Below, one piece after another: positions 456-22,320 of a stretch of DNA of 64,000 bases. The notes below the pieces were generated by a model that saw only the letters and a program-made list of their open reading frames with translations, made no database searches and was not told the DNA's origin. Each line of letters begins with the position of its first letter. The stretch's first letter is position 1. The stretch comes from Glomus cerebriforme (Eukaryota > Glomeromycota > Glomeromycetes > Glomerales > Glomeraceae), in assembly GCA_003550305.1 (NCBI GenBank), contig QKYT01000006.1, forward strand, positions 421,457 through 485,456. The letters run 5' to 3'. Both the position numbers and the translations under genes were made by a program.

Positions 456-677
456 TTAGTTCTTGTAAATATTTTAAAGTATTACACAGTGTTTTGAAAT
501 ATTACGCATTTTAATATAATGGAGTATTACACTTGGTAAAATTATGGAGTATTACGCCACATAAATTATTAGAGTATTACATTCCATAGTCTTTCGATGA
601 GATTGTAGCCTTACATAGTATTACAAAAGTGTAGATTTATGAAATACTTCGTATTAAATAAATTCCTGATATTATTT

Positions 678-1240
678 TTTTATTTTTTTTCTTTGTTAGA
701 AACGTTCTAACCAAATGTTTTTCTTTTTTTTGTAGATTCAGTTTGTTCCTTAAAATTTGAATTTTTGGGAATCAAAAACATAAGTTTCACAACTTAGCTG
801 CGAAACTTAGTTACTTTTTTGTAGGTTCTGGATTTGAATATTAGAATTGAATAGTTAGTTAGTATAATATAGTTAGTATATATATCTAGGAAGAATTTGT
901 AATTCAATACATTTTTAATAAACAAAAATAGTTTAAATATAATAAAATCAATTAACAATACTTTTATTTATTAAATGTAGTTAATATATGCTAAAATTTG
1001 TATTGTTATATGCATTTTTCAACTAATAATATGCGTTTTTCAACTAATCTAATGTTGTTATACATATTTTTAAACTGCTGTTATTTTACTGTATGTTGTT
1101 ATACACCTAAAAAAGTATTGTGCAATACATTTTTAATCATGTTGGTTGACAAAGGATTTATTGCACAACACTTTTTTGGTGTTGAGTAACACATGACATA
1201 TGTTTACACTTTATACACCTATTCAAAACTTCCTAATGTA
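678..1240 (+). repeat. Dispersed copy of the 3' end of the intron/micro-exon array
   Basis: This stretch is a diverged direct copy of about 17573-18183. It repeats the last array units (branch-like ttctaacc, T-rich tract, tgtag acceptor, then a micro-exon starting attcagtttgttcc), then the terminal block containing gaattgaatagttagttag and an approximately 400-bp downstream flank ending near aaaacttcctaatgtaagg. Similarity stops abruptly after that on both sides. Splice-like signals are retained, so it is a DNA-level duplication and not a spliced retrocopy. The ORF at 998-1189 lies inside and does not look genuine. Confidence 0.8.
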
Positions 1241-2851
1241 AGGATATATTCTAGGTGTAAATTTTTATTATGCCAAAATTACAATCAGAAAGGCATACAA
1301 AAGTAAGAAAATAAATTAGCGATTTTGATAAGAAAAGAGAGTTGGGAATCAATAATTATCATCCATCTCCTTGAGATTTATGATCAATTAAATTAATAAG
1401 TAATCATTTTAGTAGCAGGAAAGGTTTGGAATACTTATTTTGATAACTATTTTTCTTGGATTTCTAGGTAAAAATAAAATGGTCTACCCACTCTCTCTGC
1501 TACTATTAATCAATATTTACATATTTTATTTATTAAAAAAATATTTACATACTAAAAAAAAATTGGCTCAACTCCAATCAGATATTGAAAAAAAATTGAC
1601 CTGACTTTAATCAGATATTGAAAAAAAAAATTGATCTAATTCCAATCAGGTATTGAAAAAAAAATTTGGCCCAATCTAATCCAATCTTAATAAAAAAAAA
1701 TTTTAGGTTTAAATTTTAAAAATTAGTAATTAATTAATTATTTTAAAATTTTACTTACCAAAATAAAATAAAAAATTATATAAGCCATCTCTTTTATTTG
1801 AAGTGCAATTTTTAGTTTGATGCTTTATAGAATTCTAGCACTTTATATAATATCTAATGTATTCCTTCAGTATTTCTGAATACTTGATAATCTAATGGTC
1901 TTGATAGCAATAAATACATTATATCTTGAAAGATTTAAAATTTTTATTTTAATAAGTTATTATTTAATTTATAAAATTTAATTTTATATTAAACTGATAA
2001 AATTCTATTATCTGAAGAAGATTGGTAGAAAGATTAGTTGTTATTGTTATTATTGCTATGATCACTACTATCATAGCTGCTGCTATTATTACTATTACTG
2101 TTGCTCTGTTGATATCTCTACTTGTGATACTAATAATAATATCTATTAAAATTTTAGTTGTTAAATATATTTTATATAAATAATAAAATTTTATTATCAA
2201 TTCCAGATAAAGATGTTCTTGTTTTATTAACAATTGAAATCATAGACCGGTTTACTTTTGATCTAAAAAAAAAATATAATTATAATTAAGATTTTTTTTT
2301 TATTTTAATATTAATTATTTACTTACAATGATTTATTATTGATTGCATCTACAGTAATCTTAAAAATGTCTTTTATTCTATCAATAGCTACTTTTTTCAC
2401 TTCTATCATTAATTGTTTATTATTTTTTTTTCATTTTTTTCAATTTTTTTTTGAGTACTACTACTATCATTATTTTCTTTAAACATTATAAGTGTAAAAC
2501 AAGAAAAAAAAAATAATAAAAAATTATGAGAACAAAAAATTATGTGAAAATAAAAAAATTATGTGAGAACAAAAAAATTATGAGAACGAAAAATTAAAAC
2601 TTTTTTTATTTTTTTTTTATTTTATAATAAGTTTCAAAGTCAGTATATATTTTTTTTTAATAATACATATGTTTAAAAACTTTAAATCATGATAAATTTT
2701 TAAATTAGGAAATGGTTTATTATTTTATAGTATTTTAGAGAATCTTGGTGTAATTATTGATAATCTGAAGATGAAAACTGCATTAAATTATCAATAATAC
2801 AATAAGTATAATAATAAACTTACTATATAAAATCAATGGTGCAATATAGTA
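1241..2851. other. AT-rich intergenic region with short repeats
   Basis: No credible gene. It contains a 33-35 bp tandem motif at 1575-1700 built on atcagatattg followed by an A-run (starts at 1577, 1610 and 1645), trinucleotide-like tattattac low complexity at 2035-2130, repeated aaaattatgagaac words at 2515-2600, and an imperfect hairpin (attattgataat ... attatcaataat) near 2753-2798. The minus-strand ORF at 1964-2233 is low-complexity Ile/Thr and is not supported. Confidence 0.7.
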
Positions 2852-12181: not shown

Positions 12182-15100
12182 AATATGCATAGTGGAGACA
12201 TCTTACAATATAATAGATTTTACAAAAGAAATAATGAAGGGCAATATAATATTAGTAATAATAGAAATAGTTTGTAATAATATTAACAATATAGATAGTT
12301 TAAATAGAATAAATTTTAATAAAAATAATTTAATAGATAAATAAATTACTTATATTAACTTAGATAGTTACATAGTATTGGATCAAAAAACTTTAGATAA
12401 AATGTAAGAACCAGTTTGAAGTTGTTTTACTTTTCACTTTTACAAATCTATTTTTTTGTACAGCAACAAGTTACATTTTTTTAATTTAGAAAATGTATAC
12501 ATGATTTATAAGATGTATTCATTATATATTTAATTTATCTTATTAAAAAAAAATAATAAGATTTAACTCCATACTATTAGCCAATTTTATTTGTAAGTTT
12601 AAAGAAAGGGGTAGATTTTTGTATCTAATAAATAAAAATTAAATAAAGTAATTCTTAATGAAAAATAAAAGTATATTTCATTAGTGTTATTATAAAATAC
12701 TTTGATTATATTGAGAAAAGTATAGTAAAAAGACTTTCATTAATTATATATAAATAGTTAGATATTTAGTTTATATAAACCTATTTATCTTTCCATTTAG
12801 ATTATTATATTTTCTTTATTATTATATTATAAATATATATTATAATCTAATAATTATTAATAATGTATTTTTTAAATATATCTTTCTTAATAATTTTTCT
12901 TATAATAAAAATGTATTTATGATTAATATGGATTTATTCTTTTTTCTTATAATCTGTAAAAGAAAAAATTAAAGATGAATTCTATAAATTAGTATTAAAA
13001 GAATAATATTTAATAAGTATTATTGAGCTACTATTTGAAATTCTGTATATACATTTAGAATTCTAAGTTTTATTTGAATTAATAATTTATTATAGATAAA
13101 ATATATAATATTTTATACTAATTTTATGCAATTATTAAGTCTAAAATATCATTTATAATAATTATTTTTCTAATTGTAAAGTCAAATTTATTCTTAAGAT
13201 AGTTTAATTTAAATATATAATTATTATTATTATAGATTATTTAATTTAAAAAAATTATTTTTAAATTATTTGTAAAAATCTATTATATAAATATATCATT
13301 CATATAAATCTTAATTAAATTATACTAAATAAAATATTCTATTTTTTTTAAAATAGGCAAATTATATTTATTATTACTAATTTTTACAATTAAAATACTT
13401 ATTATAATTTACAATACAACCTTTATTATTATGATATAGAAAATTATTACCTATCATATAATAAAGTATACAGATTTTTAGAGTAAGGTACATAAACTAC
13501 AGATTTTCTTAGATAAAGTATGCTTTAACTTTTCTCTATATCCCAATATAAATACTAAATATATATAAAGAAAATTAAACCTAAATTATCTCTACTACTA
13601 CTTTATAAAAACCTAAAATAAAAGCTTTTATCAGTATAATAGATCTATAATTATACTCTGTGATATTCAAATTCTATCTAAGTATCTATATTATAAATAT
13701 ATCTTTATAGTATTTATCTTGAATTAGTCAATTTCTAATAGTACAAGACTGCTTTTTTTTCATCAGATTAAGATAATTACTTATATAGAAGCCAGCTTTA
13801 AAGCTTTACATATTCTACTTCTATCTAAGAATTTTCATTCTTAATATATACACTTATTAAAAATAAATAATACATGTGATATTACTCTAAATTTCAAATA
13901 TATCTATTCTATTTCAACCATATTTTCCTATTTTTTTTTTATTTTTTTTTAAATATCAACAATATGTTACATCACTTTAAGAAGCTAAAAAAAATTACTA
14001 TTCTATAAAACAAATAATCATGATTGTAAAACAATAAACTGAAGAGAACTAATTATATAATAATAATTAGTTATTAATCAAATTTTTCAGTATCTTTTAC
14101 TTCTTTCTAATTTAATAATATTTTTAGTAACTTTAAGAACAAAAAAAAAATAATTTTAAAAGTAAATAAGCAATATATTAAGATACTAATTCAAAATACC
14201 TAAAAAATAAAAATTTAAATTTTAATAAAAGAAAATTTTTACCAAATAAATATTAAAGAAAGATCTCCTTTTGGCTTTTACTTTTCTTTTATCTTCTTAC
14301 ATTTATAAAAATTTAGAGTAAGCAAAGTTATAATCTTTCTTATAAAATCTTTTTCTTTTGACTTTATTCATCTAATGGCTAAAGTAAAGATATTCTTTCT
14401 AAAAACTTAAAATAGTTAAACATACTAGTTAAAAAAAAATAAGTTATTATTCAAAGAAAAGGTAAAAAGTTATGAGTATATTTCATAAAAAATTAATGTA
14501 AACAACTTAAATTAATAAAATTATATATAAGAATATATGACATTTAACATTTGATTTGAATTTAATTTGAATTTAATTTGAAAATTCTTTAATTTGATTG
14601 GTCAATTCAACAAATATTTGATATTTAATTCAAATTTGACTTGAACTTGGTTTGATTTGTCAAATTCAAATTAGCTTCATATTTGATTTGATTCAAGTTT
14701 AAGAAATCCTAATTATACATAAAATAAATATAAGACTATTTTTACTTAAACCTTTAAAGCTTTTTGTTATTTAGAAAAACTTCAAAATTATGTTTTTATT
14801 TTTTCAAAAAAATGGGCAGAAAATTATAGAAAAGAGTTATTTTCTAAAATATTCTATTTTAAATTATTATTGTTAATTAAAATTTTTATTAATTGCTATT
14901 TTGATATGTAAAAATATAAAAAAAAAATTATAATTATATTATTTTTTTTTTGAAGACAAGATGGAATAGAAAAACTTTATTTATTAAGTAATATAATGCA
15001 TATAATCGGTCTACTATAAAGTATTTATTTTCATATTACATTCTTTACCATAATATGAAAAAATGCTACTTCAAAATACTATAATTACAATTACAGTATT

Positions 15101-15560
15101 TTGTATGACTATAAGTAATTAGCAAATCTAAATATTTTACAATCTCTTGAATTATAAATTAATAATACTCAATCTTGATATCAATTAATGTTTAATTTTT
15201 TTTTGAATATTTAATCTTTACATTTTGCAAATTAACATTATAGCATATTTATGGTATTACAGTATTATAGTATAAGTTTTATATGCTATAATTAATTTTG
15301 ACAGCATCTATAAATATGAGTTCTCAGAGTAAGGATTAAAAGCAAGATCTCTTTAATACTCTGATTCTTTTTCATATTTCAGTACTAAAATTAAAAAATA
15401 ATCTCTTCAGCCAGTTCTTCTAAATCTTCCTTTAAACAGAATATTTCCCTTCAATCACATGAATCTTTAAACTAGTATAAAATATTGATAAGTTTCTAGA
15501 GACTGAATGCCTTCAGCATAAAGAATACCTAGCTCATAGACTTGGATTTTTTAATCACTT
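12182..15560. other. AT-rich desert, right part
   Basis: More than 3 kb of very AT-rich DNA dense in stop codons in all frames. A low-complexity tract of repeated tttgaattt and aatttgatt words lies at 14530-14705. Some stretches (for example 13400-13750) have slightly more structure and could be heavily mutated transposon sequence, but I could not identify any protein motif. Confidence 0.55.
14530..14705. repeat. Low-complexity ttgaattt repeat tract
   Basis: Irregular head-to-tail repetition of words such as tttgaatttaatttgaa and tcaaatttgactt over about 175 bp, in both orientations. No coding potential. Confidence 0.7.
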
Positions 15561-15584
15561 TTTGAACTTTGTTCTAGAAATTGA

Positions 15585-17760
15585 AAAATGATAAGTTTCT
15601 TTATAAAACTTACCATTTTTTTTCAATTTTTTTTAAAAAAACGTTTCTAACATTTCTTCTTTTTTTTTTTATAGGTTTCTCAATTTTCGACCTAATACTG
15701 GAAAGTGAAAACTGGTAAGTTTTTTTCACAAAACTTACCATTTTTTTTGTTTTTTTTAAAATGCTTATTAATATTTCTTTTTTTTTTCTTATAGGTTCTC
15801 TAAGCTCTTCAGTCCAGACTGGAAGGGAAAAATGGTAAGTTTCTTCATAAAACTTATCATTTTTTTTCATTTTTTTTAAAGAAACATTTCTAACATTTCT
15901 TCTTTTTTTTTCTTGTAAGTTTTCTGTGTATTCAGTTCAATATTGAAATTAGAAATAGTAAGTTTTTCAAGTTTTTTTGGGAAACTTACTGTATTTTTTT
16001 TAATTTTCTTTTATTAGAAATGTTTCTAACATTTTTTTCTCTTTTCTTTTATAGGTTCTCTTTGTTTTTGGATTAGTACATAAAATTGGAAAATGGTAAG
16101 TTTTTTTGCAAAACTTGCCATTTTTTTTCTTTTTTTTAGAAATGTTTTCTAACAGTACTTTTTCTTTTCTTGTAGACCTCCTTCAGTTTGAATATTTGAA
16201 ATTAGGAAATGGTAAGTTTTATAACGAAACTTACTATTCTTTTTTTTGTTTTTTTAAATAGAAATATTTCTAACATTTCTTTTTTTTTCTTTTTATAGGT
16301 TCTTAAATTTCATTTTAAATATGCAAAATTTCCATCTGATGCATTTACTTAAAGAATCATTAGTAGAAATAGTACTAACATTTATTTCTTTTTCATTTTT
16401 TTGTAGAATCAGATTTTTTTTAATTTTGGCTTAAAAATCTGGTAAGTTTTGAAGTTAAAACCTTAAAACTTTCTTTTCAGAATGTAAGTTTATAACGAAC
16501 CTTTATTTTTTTTATTTTTTTTAAGAAATATTCTAACCAAATGTTTCTTCTTTTTTTGTAAGTTTGTTTTTGAATTTAAAAAACTAAAATATAAGTTTTG
16601 TAATGTTCATTTTATTACAAAACTTTATTTTTTTTGGTTTTTTTTTTAAGAAATATTCTAACTGAATGTTTCTTTTTTTTTGTAGATTAATTTAAAATTG
16701 AAAACAAAAATGTAAGTTTTGTAACAAATTACTTCATTATAAACTTCATTTTTCATTTTTTCTTTCTTTATTAGAAATATTCTAATCAACTGTTTCTTCT
16801 TTTTTTTGTAGATTTAGTTCTGAAAATGGAAATGGAAATGTAAGTTTTATAATATTTATTTTATTATAATATTTATGATACTCATACTACACTAATTGTC
16901 AAATGAAACATAAGTTTCATAATATTCATTTTATTATAAGCTTCATTTTTCATTTTTTTTCTTTATATAGAAACATTCTAACTAAATGTTTCTTCTTTTC
17001 TTTTGTAAATTTTTCTTTGAAAACAGAAATAAAAACATAAGTTTTGTAATGTTCATTTAATTATAAGCTTCATTTTTCATTTTTTTTTGTATAGAAACAT
17101 TCTAACTAAATGTTGCTTTTTTTTTGTAGATTCAGCTTTGAAAATAGAAATAAAATGTAAGTTTTATAATGTTTATTTTGTTACAAACTTCATTTTTTAT
17201 TTTTTTTCTTTATATAGAAACATTCTAACCAAATGTTTCTTCTTTTCTTTTATAGATTCAGCTTTGAAAATTGAAATGAAATGTAAGTTTTGTAATATTT
17301 GTTTTATTACAAGCTTTGTTTTTCATTTTTTTTCTTTGTATAAAAACATTCTAACTGAACGTTTCTTCTTTTCTTTTATAGATTTAGCTCTGGAAATAGA
17401 AATGAAAATGTAAGTTTCATAATATTCATTTCATTACAAACTTTATTTTTTATTTTTTTTTCTTTGTATAGAAATATTTTAACTGAACATTTCTCTTTTT
17501 TTTATAGGTTTGCTCCTAAATTTGAAAAACTGAAACTTAAGTTTTGTAATAAATATTTTGTTACAAAACTTTATTTTTTCATTTTTTTTATTTGTTAGAA
17601 ATGTTCTAACCAAATGTTTTTTTTTTTGTAGATTTAGTTTGTTCCTTAAAATTTAGATTTTTGGAAGTTTTACAACTTATCTGCAAAACTTAATTTATTT
17701 ATTCTTTTTATGAAAAATGTTAATTAATATTTCTCTTTACTTTTTTGTAGGTTCTAAATT
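15585..17760 (+). repeat. Tandem array of about 17 intron/micro-exon units
   Basis: The unit is about 105-138 bp and has a fixed order: a micro-exon of 27-41 nt, a GTAAGT-type donor, an inverted repeat around the donor, a T-rich stretch, a TTCTAAC branch-like word, a pyrimidine run and a TATAG/TGTAG acceptor. Clear donors start at 15715, 15835, 15958, 16096, 16212, 16442, 16484, 16712, 16840, 17157, 17283 and 17410. Degenerate ones (ATAAGT, TTAAGT, CATAAG) lie near 15593, 16590, 17037 and 17537. Measured micro-exons include 15675-15714 (40 nt), 15795-15834 (40), 16055-16095 (41), 16812-16839 (28), 17130-17156 (27), 17256-17282 (27) and 17382-17409 (28). Two subfamilies are evident: units starting gttctc on the left and attcagctttgaaaa on the right. 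Continuous ORFs over the array (plus 17087-17413, minus 15610-15870) read through introns and are not accepted as genes. Confidence 0.8.
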
Positions 17761-18183
17761 TGGGTATTAGAATTGAATAGTTAGTTAGTATAGCATAGTT
17801 AGTATATCTAGAAAGAATTTGTAATTTAGTATATTTTTAATAAATGAATATAGTTTGAACATAATAAAATCAATTTGACAAGTTTAACAATACTTTTATT
17901 TATTAAATGTAGTTAATATAATATATATGCTAAAATTTGTATTGTTATACATGTTTTTCAACATTTTTATATGCATTTTTCAACCAACCTAGTGTTGTTA
18001 TATGCATTTTTAAACTGCTATTGTTTTGCTGTATGTTATTATACATCTAAAAAAGTGTTGCATAACACATTTTTAATCATGTTGGTTGATAAAGGATTTA
18101 TTGTATAACACCTTTTTGATGTTAAGCAACACATGGCATATGTTGACATATTATACGTCTGTTCAAAACTTTCTGATATTAGG
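17761..18183 (+). repeat. Terminal exon-like block and 3' flank of the array, duplicated near the left edge
   Basis: After the last acceptor (tttttttgtag at about 17750) comes a block containing gaattgaatagttagttag, then AT-rich sequence with aataaa-like words and three ttgttatay...attttt...aac motifs. The whole block matches about 820-1240 in the same orientation. Similarity ends at aaaactttctgatattagg. Confidence 0.75.
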
Positions 18184-21309: not shown

Positions 21310-22020
21310 TTAATATTTATCAAAAAAATACATTCTATTCTAGTATTGTTACAAAAAAAAATTATAATTTTACAACTACTTAAGCTAAATATATAAAAAT
21401 TAATATATAAGTGTTTCAATACTCACTGAACAACTTTACTTAAGCTTCCTTTGTATATTTTCTTTGATCAAAGTGTTCAAATTACACCTTGAAAGTAAAA
21501 AATATAATGCATTTTAATATTATTACAAAAAAATTTGTAACTTCACAACTAGCTAAGCTAGATATATAAAAATTAATATGTGAATATTCAATACCTGTTA
21601 AACAACTTTACTTAAGCTTTCTTTGTATGTTTTCTTTGATCAAAGTATTCAAATTATGCTCTAAAAGTAAAAAATACAATATGTTTTAATATTATTACAA
21701 AAAAATTTATAACTTCACAATCACTTAAGCTAGGTACATGAAAATTAATATGTAAGTATTTCAATATCCGCTAAACAACTTTACTTATGCTTCCTAGTTC
21801 CTTCGTATGTTTTTTTTGATCAAAGTGTTCAAATTACATCTTGAAAATAAAAAATAAAAATGCATCTTGATATTATTAGAAAAAAATTTATAACTCCAAT
21901 AACTCCACAGTTAGCTTCATAAAAATCAATATACAAGTATCTCCATACCTGTTAAATACCTTTCTTAGATATTCCTGCCTATCTAGATTGACCTAAAGTA
22001 TTTAAATTATCTTATGAAAT
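21310..22020. repeat. About 175-bp tandem repeat, four diverged copies
   Basis: The landmark tttgatcaaagtgttcaaatta or a variant recurs at about 21463, 21635, 21815 and, degraded, about 21985, giving spacings of 172-180 bp. Each unit also contains tattattacaaaaaaatt, a taagcta word, aaaattaatat and caactttactta in the same order. There is no coding potential. The last copy is the most diverged, suggesting growth from the left or older decay on the right. Confidence 0.85.
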
Positions 22021-22242: not shown

Positions 22243-22320
22243 ATTCGGGGGGTCTAGGATAAGATCCTAGATCCCGGGGTTTACGTTAAGATCCTAGACC
22301 CCAGGGTCTATGTTAAGATT
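22243..22320. repeat. Palindromic/direct repeat cluster around gatcctaga
   Basis: ggtctaggat-aag-atcctagatcc forms a near-perfect hairpin. The words gatcctagaccccagggtct and gatcctagatcccggggttt are close direct repeats, each followed by a g-t-t-aagat word. It is GC-rich in an AT-rich setting and lies just left of the Tc1/mariner element. Confidence 0.7.

Follow-up and report, generated by a model that had tools for sequence, protein, structure and literature searches.

The window, by which we mean the whole 64,000-nucleotide stretch analysed here, carries a tandem array of exon-intron-like units (Table 1). Between positions 15585 and 17760 the plus strand holds 14 GTAAGT words and 10 composites, strictly defined as GTAAG, YTAAY and a pyrimidine-rich YAG and, being tandem relatives, mutually non-independent, while the minus strand holds no composite. 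In 300 dinucleotide shuffles of this interval the mean was 0.13 composites and the maximum 2, and the remaining 61.8 kb of the window contained 3 on both strands combined. The array is far beyond chance. An earlier note on this DNA had described an array of about 17 units with all landmarks on the plus strand. On re-inspection its location and unit order were found as stated, as were the single orientation and the two exon-length subfamilies, the parsed exon-like pieces of the window copy measuring 36–41 nt on the left and 26–28 nt on the right. The count came out at 18–19 unit starts instead, several of them with a damaged donor, and the strand claim held for the composites but not for single words: GTAAGT also occurs four times on the minus strand, since the donor forms one half of the palindrome GGTAAGTTTC..GAAACTTACC. 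Damage to the units of the window copy was largely G-to-A and C-to-T: donors read ATAAG at 15591, 16591, 16910 and 17037, and one was lost near 16320. Scanning the window with Rfam and for tRNA gave no matches. Two other tandem arrays were observed in the window, one of a 172-bp unit (21323–21895, 3.3 copies) and one of a 27-bp unit (22249–22319; unit start GGGGTCTA, end TAGACCCC).

Table 1. Positions in the window of the array, the element that carries it and their parts
Feature	Position	Strand	Remarks
Tandem array, 18–19 exon-intron-like units, some damaged	15591..17759	+	
Left subfamily	15591..16299	+	exon-like pieces ~36–41 nt; intron-like pieces mostly ~80–100 nt
Degenerate unit, without GTAAGTTT donor in the window copy (CGG|GTATGG in less decayed copies)	16320..16441	+	
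Right subfamily	16484..17650	+	exon-like pieces ~26–30 nt, last ~44 nt; intron-like pieces ~95–100 nt
Example donor hairpin (GGTAAGTTT ... AAACTTACC), holds the donor at 15715	15714..15741	+	from sequence and consensus-unit folding
Remnant transposon copy lacking the 5' part; array and 3' part retained	15549..18178	+	shared with other copies
Shared 3' region, ~420 bp, ends in inverted repeat	17760..18178	+	
3' terminal inverted repeat CAAAACTTTCTGATA (family form CAAAACTTCCTGATG)	18164..18178	+	
Second, truncated copy of the element: array end and 3' region	672..1243	+	3' inverted repeat at 1224–1238

Each unit follows the same order. A GC-rich piece of 28–44 nt comes first; GTAAGTTT and its matching arm then make up a first hairpin, and a T tract leads to a second one, whose loop contains or adjoins CTAAC. 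After this come a pyrimidine tract and, last, TTGTAG. The intron-like pieces, mostly of 80–100 nt, thus take the form GTAAGTTT...YTAAY...TTGTAG, and the inferred exons have a GC content of 0.41–0.57 in T-rich surroundings. The splice-like words that the earlier note had reported as retained were upheld across the unit consensuses, with TT(G/A)TAG and YTAAY each in 16/16, GTAAGTTT in 13/16 and ATAAGTTT in 2, a conservation that is partly built in since the units were recognised and cut by these landmarks. Two palindromes built on GAAAC/GTTTC are present in each unit, and folding of the consensus units gave z ≤ −2 (mononucleotide shuffles) in 15 of 17. With the brackets read by eye, a donor hairpin was predicted in 16 of these 17 (U15 being the exception), and the acceptor word TT(G/A)TAG falls outside both hairpins. 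For unit 8 the plain consensus gives GGAAG, and less decayed copies give CGG followed directly by GTATGG. The units resemble host introns in size and ends, judging by the introns of the actin gene on contig C85, which as read by eye have similar ends and are mostly 60–90 nt long, the first being longer.

A search of the genome of Glomus cerebriforme, an arbuscular mycorrhizal fungus (112.5-Mb assembly, 1117 contigs), as the earlier note had proposed, found the left array and the right flank again at dozens of loci among the matches listed. A dispersed inverted-repeat element has the array as its interior. In the window copy the sequence common to other copies runs from about 37 bp before the array up to the 3' inverted repeat, so that the feature, which had been given ends at 15585 and 17760, extends on to 18178 and is cut off on the left at about 15549. 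Less truncated copies share a further ~820 bp of 5' sequence, and its start, CATCAGGAAGTTTTGGAGGTG, is reverse-complementary to the 3' end ..CAAAACTTCCTGATG. Full-length copies have CATCAGGAAGTTTTG at their 5' terminus and the reverse complement of this 15-bp sequence at their 3' terminus, a pair of terminal inverted repeats as expected of a TIR DNA transposon; a retroelement with 5' truncation was dropped as a candidate, since the 5' end of these copies is their 3' end in reverse. With the window's two copies excluded, 23 of 24 3' ends reached CTGATG or a close variant, the exception being the second arm of L026, which stops earlier. The CATCAGGAAGTTTTG 15-mer had 196 genome matches at ≤1 mismatch (control, 6), and a 27-base core word of the 3' region occurred 71 times at ≤3 mismatches (control, 0); we estimate the family at about 70–100 copies. 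The left flank of the window copy (15001–15584) also matched elsewhere in the genome, yet outside the loci of the element. Just to the left of the element lies another dispersed repeat (15071–15317), which matches about 20 places at 75–90 % identity.

Target site duplications were of a fixed length of 2 bp and identical in 12 of the 15 insertions checked (L017, L019 outer, L021, L024, L026, L031, L032, L036, L038, L039, L040 and L041); the flanking dinucleotides differed at L022 (TT/TA), L033 (AA/GA) and L019 inner (CA/TA), and the ambiguous pairs at L034 and L016 were left out of the count. At L019 one family copy is nested in the 3' region of another, with borders CA/TA, and the target, CA, is contained in the family's own 3' region sequence. 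From end to end, 10 of 13 copies measured 3.0–3.5 kb and the remaining three 2.6, 2.7 and 3.8 kb; among these 13 lengths, three were taken across assembly gaps. The anatomy of the family thus comprises a 5' region of ~820 bp, including a short ATG-led GC-rich stretch, the array, whose length points to very roughly 9–22 units, and a 3' region of ~420 bp. Copies at loci L017–L041 were observed to differ mostly by C-to-T and G-to-A, often at CpG, a pattern that suggests methylation-driven or RIP-like decay. Tail-to-tail pairs of copies, 130–230 bp apart, were also seen on contigs C104, C203 and C540 (L026, L019 and L036), three such pairs being, by impression, above chance.

No transposase partner with the same ends was found among the first 100 of the 196 end matches or in a search for one transposase family. 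The latter search gave a transposase-family match near one element end in L054, which appears to lie in a nested element beginning CACTAG, whose other end falls beyond the end of the contig; Pfam returned nothing for four open reading frames of this nested element. The extra part of L037, about 6 kb inserted in the 3' region, we take to be Helitron-like, and from their open reading frames or ends the nested elements of L037, L018, L028 and L054 are presumably Helitron-like, pogo/Jerky-like, Tc1/mariner-like and CACTA-like. As for the family itself, its 2-bp duplications are not confined to TA, which speaks against Tc1/mariner. The seemingly different interiors of L038, L039 and L040 turned out to be assembly gaps. 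Among the copies with perfect ends, those on C512, C751 and C828 contain gaps.

We infer from these features that the array units may be spliced by the host. The composites confined to a single strand, the host-like size and ends, the GC contrast between exon-like pieces and surroundings, and the acceptor word kept outside the hairpins all favour splicing, while the burial of the donor in a predicted stem in 16 of 17 consensus units speaks against it, since access of U1 should be hindered. A query of joined exons, for which 40 of the 71 candidates were scored, gave 103 matches, none of them spanning two exons in full, but a failure to find spliced copies has little weight because a DNA transposon carries its introns along in copying. 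Homogenisation between units could keep the words alike without selection.

Taken together, the results are best explained, in our judgement with moderate confidence, by a decayed, 5'-truncated copy from a non-autonomous inverted-repeat transposon family with a tandemly amplified exon-intron module that would yield a host-spliceable micro-exon RNA under no coding selection. One exon-plus-intron module may have been captured by the element or have arisen within it, and its amplification in tandem would have given rise to the two subfamilies. The element would move as DNA via a transposase supplied by a partner, so that the array would travel unspliced; in sense transcripts of a copy, the units could be used by the host spliceosome to produce a micro-exon RNA free of coding selection, and the donor hairpins might damp or regulate this splicing. 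We advance only tentatively the stronger proposal that the body of the transposon consists mostly of working introns, about 10–20 in tandem per insertion, with 5' splice sites masked by hairpins and a micro-exon RNA released by regulated or stepwise splicing.

The most serious competitor, which we nevertheless regard as rather unlikely, holds that the splice-like words are incidental and that the two-palindrome unit is a DNA or RNA structure, for instance one bound by a transposase or by some protein of the host, or else a product of functionless amplification. The GAAAC/GTTTC palindromes with their low folding z-scores and the position of the donor within a stem agree with such a structure, as does unit 8, which retains its hairpin where the plain consensus is without the GTAAGTTT donor; yet the less decayed copies offer a possible donor, GTATGG, in that same unit, and neither the confinement of the composites to one strand nor the 16/16 retention of an acceptor word that belongs to no hairpin is readily explained by structure.

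It is improbable, in our view, that the transposon instead bears a protein-coding micro-exon gene starting MGGGSSNGSSP and read through the array. A chimeric peptide, made of the 5' ATG stretch and the joined inferred exons, matched 19 annotated G. cerebriforme proteins (E ≤ 10; 274 candidates), 17 of them with E < 0.05, and the joined exon pieces were present in all 18 of the matching proteins whose sequences were inspected. The statement of the earlier note that no host protein can be read through the array was therefore too strong, since other copies carry annotated gene models. On the other side, the same search gave no match outside G. cerebriforme, and Pfam reported no family at or above its cut-off for six of the gene models. 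Different models use different units of the array, and the four that were placed on loci had GTAAG donors in 28 of 41 introns and other donors in 13, in a mapping that favours GTAAG donors and that covered P0128 for its first half only. In P0123 and P0128 the array is apparently joined to a second gene, indicated in one by an F-box name and in the other by an open reading frame beside L024, and these fusions are probably annotation chimeras.

The tests of openness were mixed, and no one open frame was kept through the exons. Once C-to-T and G-to-A decay was allowed for, 25 of 30 sense frames were open in the inferred forms, but so were 26 of 30 antisense frames; in the majority forms 21 of 30 sense frames were open, as against 15 of 30 antisense, and stop words were rarer than in dinucleotide shuffles in both (P 0.02 for inferred and 0.03 for majority forms). 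A description of all frames as closed, taken from the plain consensus, was dropped, many of the stops being decayed sense codons. As a coding gene would have it, the sole open frame of exon 5 matches that of exon 7 provided that exon 5 is 40 nt long; 7 copies had it at this length, 8 at 41 nt and 1 at 39 nt. Moreover, copies in which the parser, which misses decayed units, detected the exon type of 40 nt had between 1 and 6 such exons each, so that the frame is not kept. The long exon, exon 7, shows no codon-position bias in 21 copies: relative to a reference inferred by preferring C and G, differences at the three codon positions numbered 43, 45 and 52 for the decay type and 9, 11 and 3 for the others. 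Because the number of units ignores the frame and codon-position bias is absent, the 19 matching proteins look like products of the gene finder, and the micro-exon gene of a new type that the earlier note had entertained finds no support as a protein gene, given the variable count of the 40-nt exon and the unbiased exon 7.

Very improbable, finally, is an introner or introner nursery, also raised in the earlier note, in which individual units would insert into genes and become new introns there: intron-like units do lie inside an inverted-repeat element here, and 72 of 177 introner families have such repeats according to the part of PMC9860276 drawn on, but the loci are arrays or pieces of the element, with no single genic unit among the matches listed.

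If the units of this transposon are spliced, its copies would provide dozens of related natural constructs for the effects of a hairpin at the 5' splice site, of micro-exon length and of choice among tandem sites, together with an example of how introns could multiply in tandem and be dispersed through transposition. Should splicing be absent, the family is a caution, in that ordered splice words have led to at least 17 annotated proteins that are probably transposon DNA. Among the titles and abstract openings that made up the part of the literature searched, no paper dealt with such an array, and a natural splicing substrate of this kind was without counterpart.

Rows of very short exons are also found in the micro-exon genes of schistosomes and the bicycle genes of aphids, but these genes code for protein, while the units described here are part of a transposon and preserve no frame. 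Foldback transposons, which have tandem repeats within the transposon and long inverted arms around one loop, share the internal tandem repeats, and some loci here have two facing copies; a foldback element was nonetheless rejected, as the middles of the facing pairs on C104, C203 and C540 are unrelated, so that the pairs look like two insertions, and many copies are solitary. Nor is the array ordinary satellite DNA, which the earlier note had named as its alternative, for it is bounded by inverted repeats in the copies with both ends found. Non-autonomous Helentron elements of the oyster carry satellite-like arrays and, as far as the portion of PMC7492417 used here goes, likewise spread a tandem array genome-wide within a mobile element; the present family differs in its inverted-repeat ends, its 2-bp target duplications and its intron-like two-hairpin repeat. 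Introners, as presented in the same part of PMC9860276, resemble it in their intron-like sequence, many copies and signs of DNA transposition, but they are single introns inserted in genes, while here the units are internal and tandem and the ends of the element are not splice sites. In the curation of the Rhizophagus irregularis transposons, in the sections of PMC11075540 relied on, inverted-repeat elements with a match to a transposase domain were kept, and elements that lacked one were termed MITEs if between 50 bp and 1 kb long; at 2.6–3.8 kb the copies described here exceed the latter range, and an element of ~3.3 kb without a found transposase would fall between the two classes. The element thus belongs to the non-autonomous inverted-repeat transposons, a known kind, and what is new is its body, an exon-intron-like tandem array of double hairpins.
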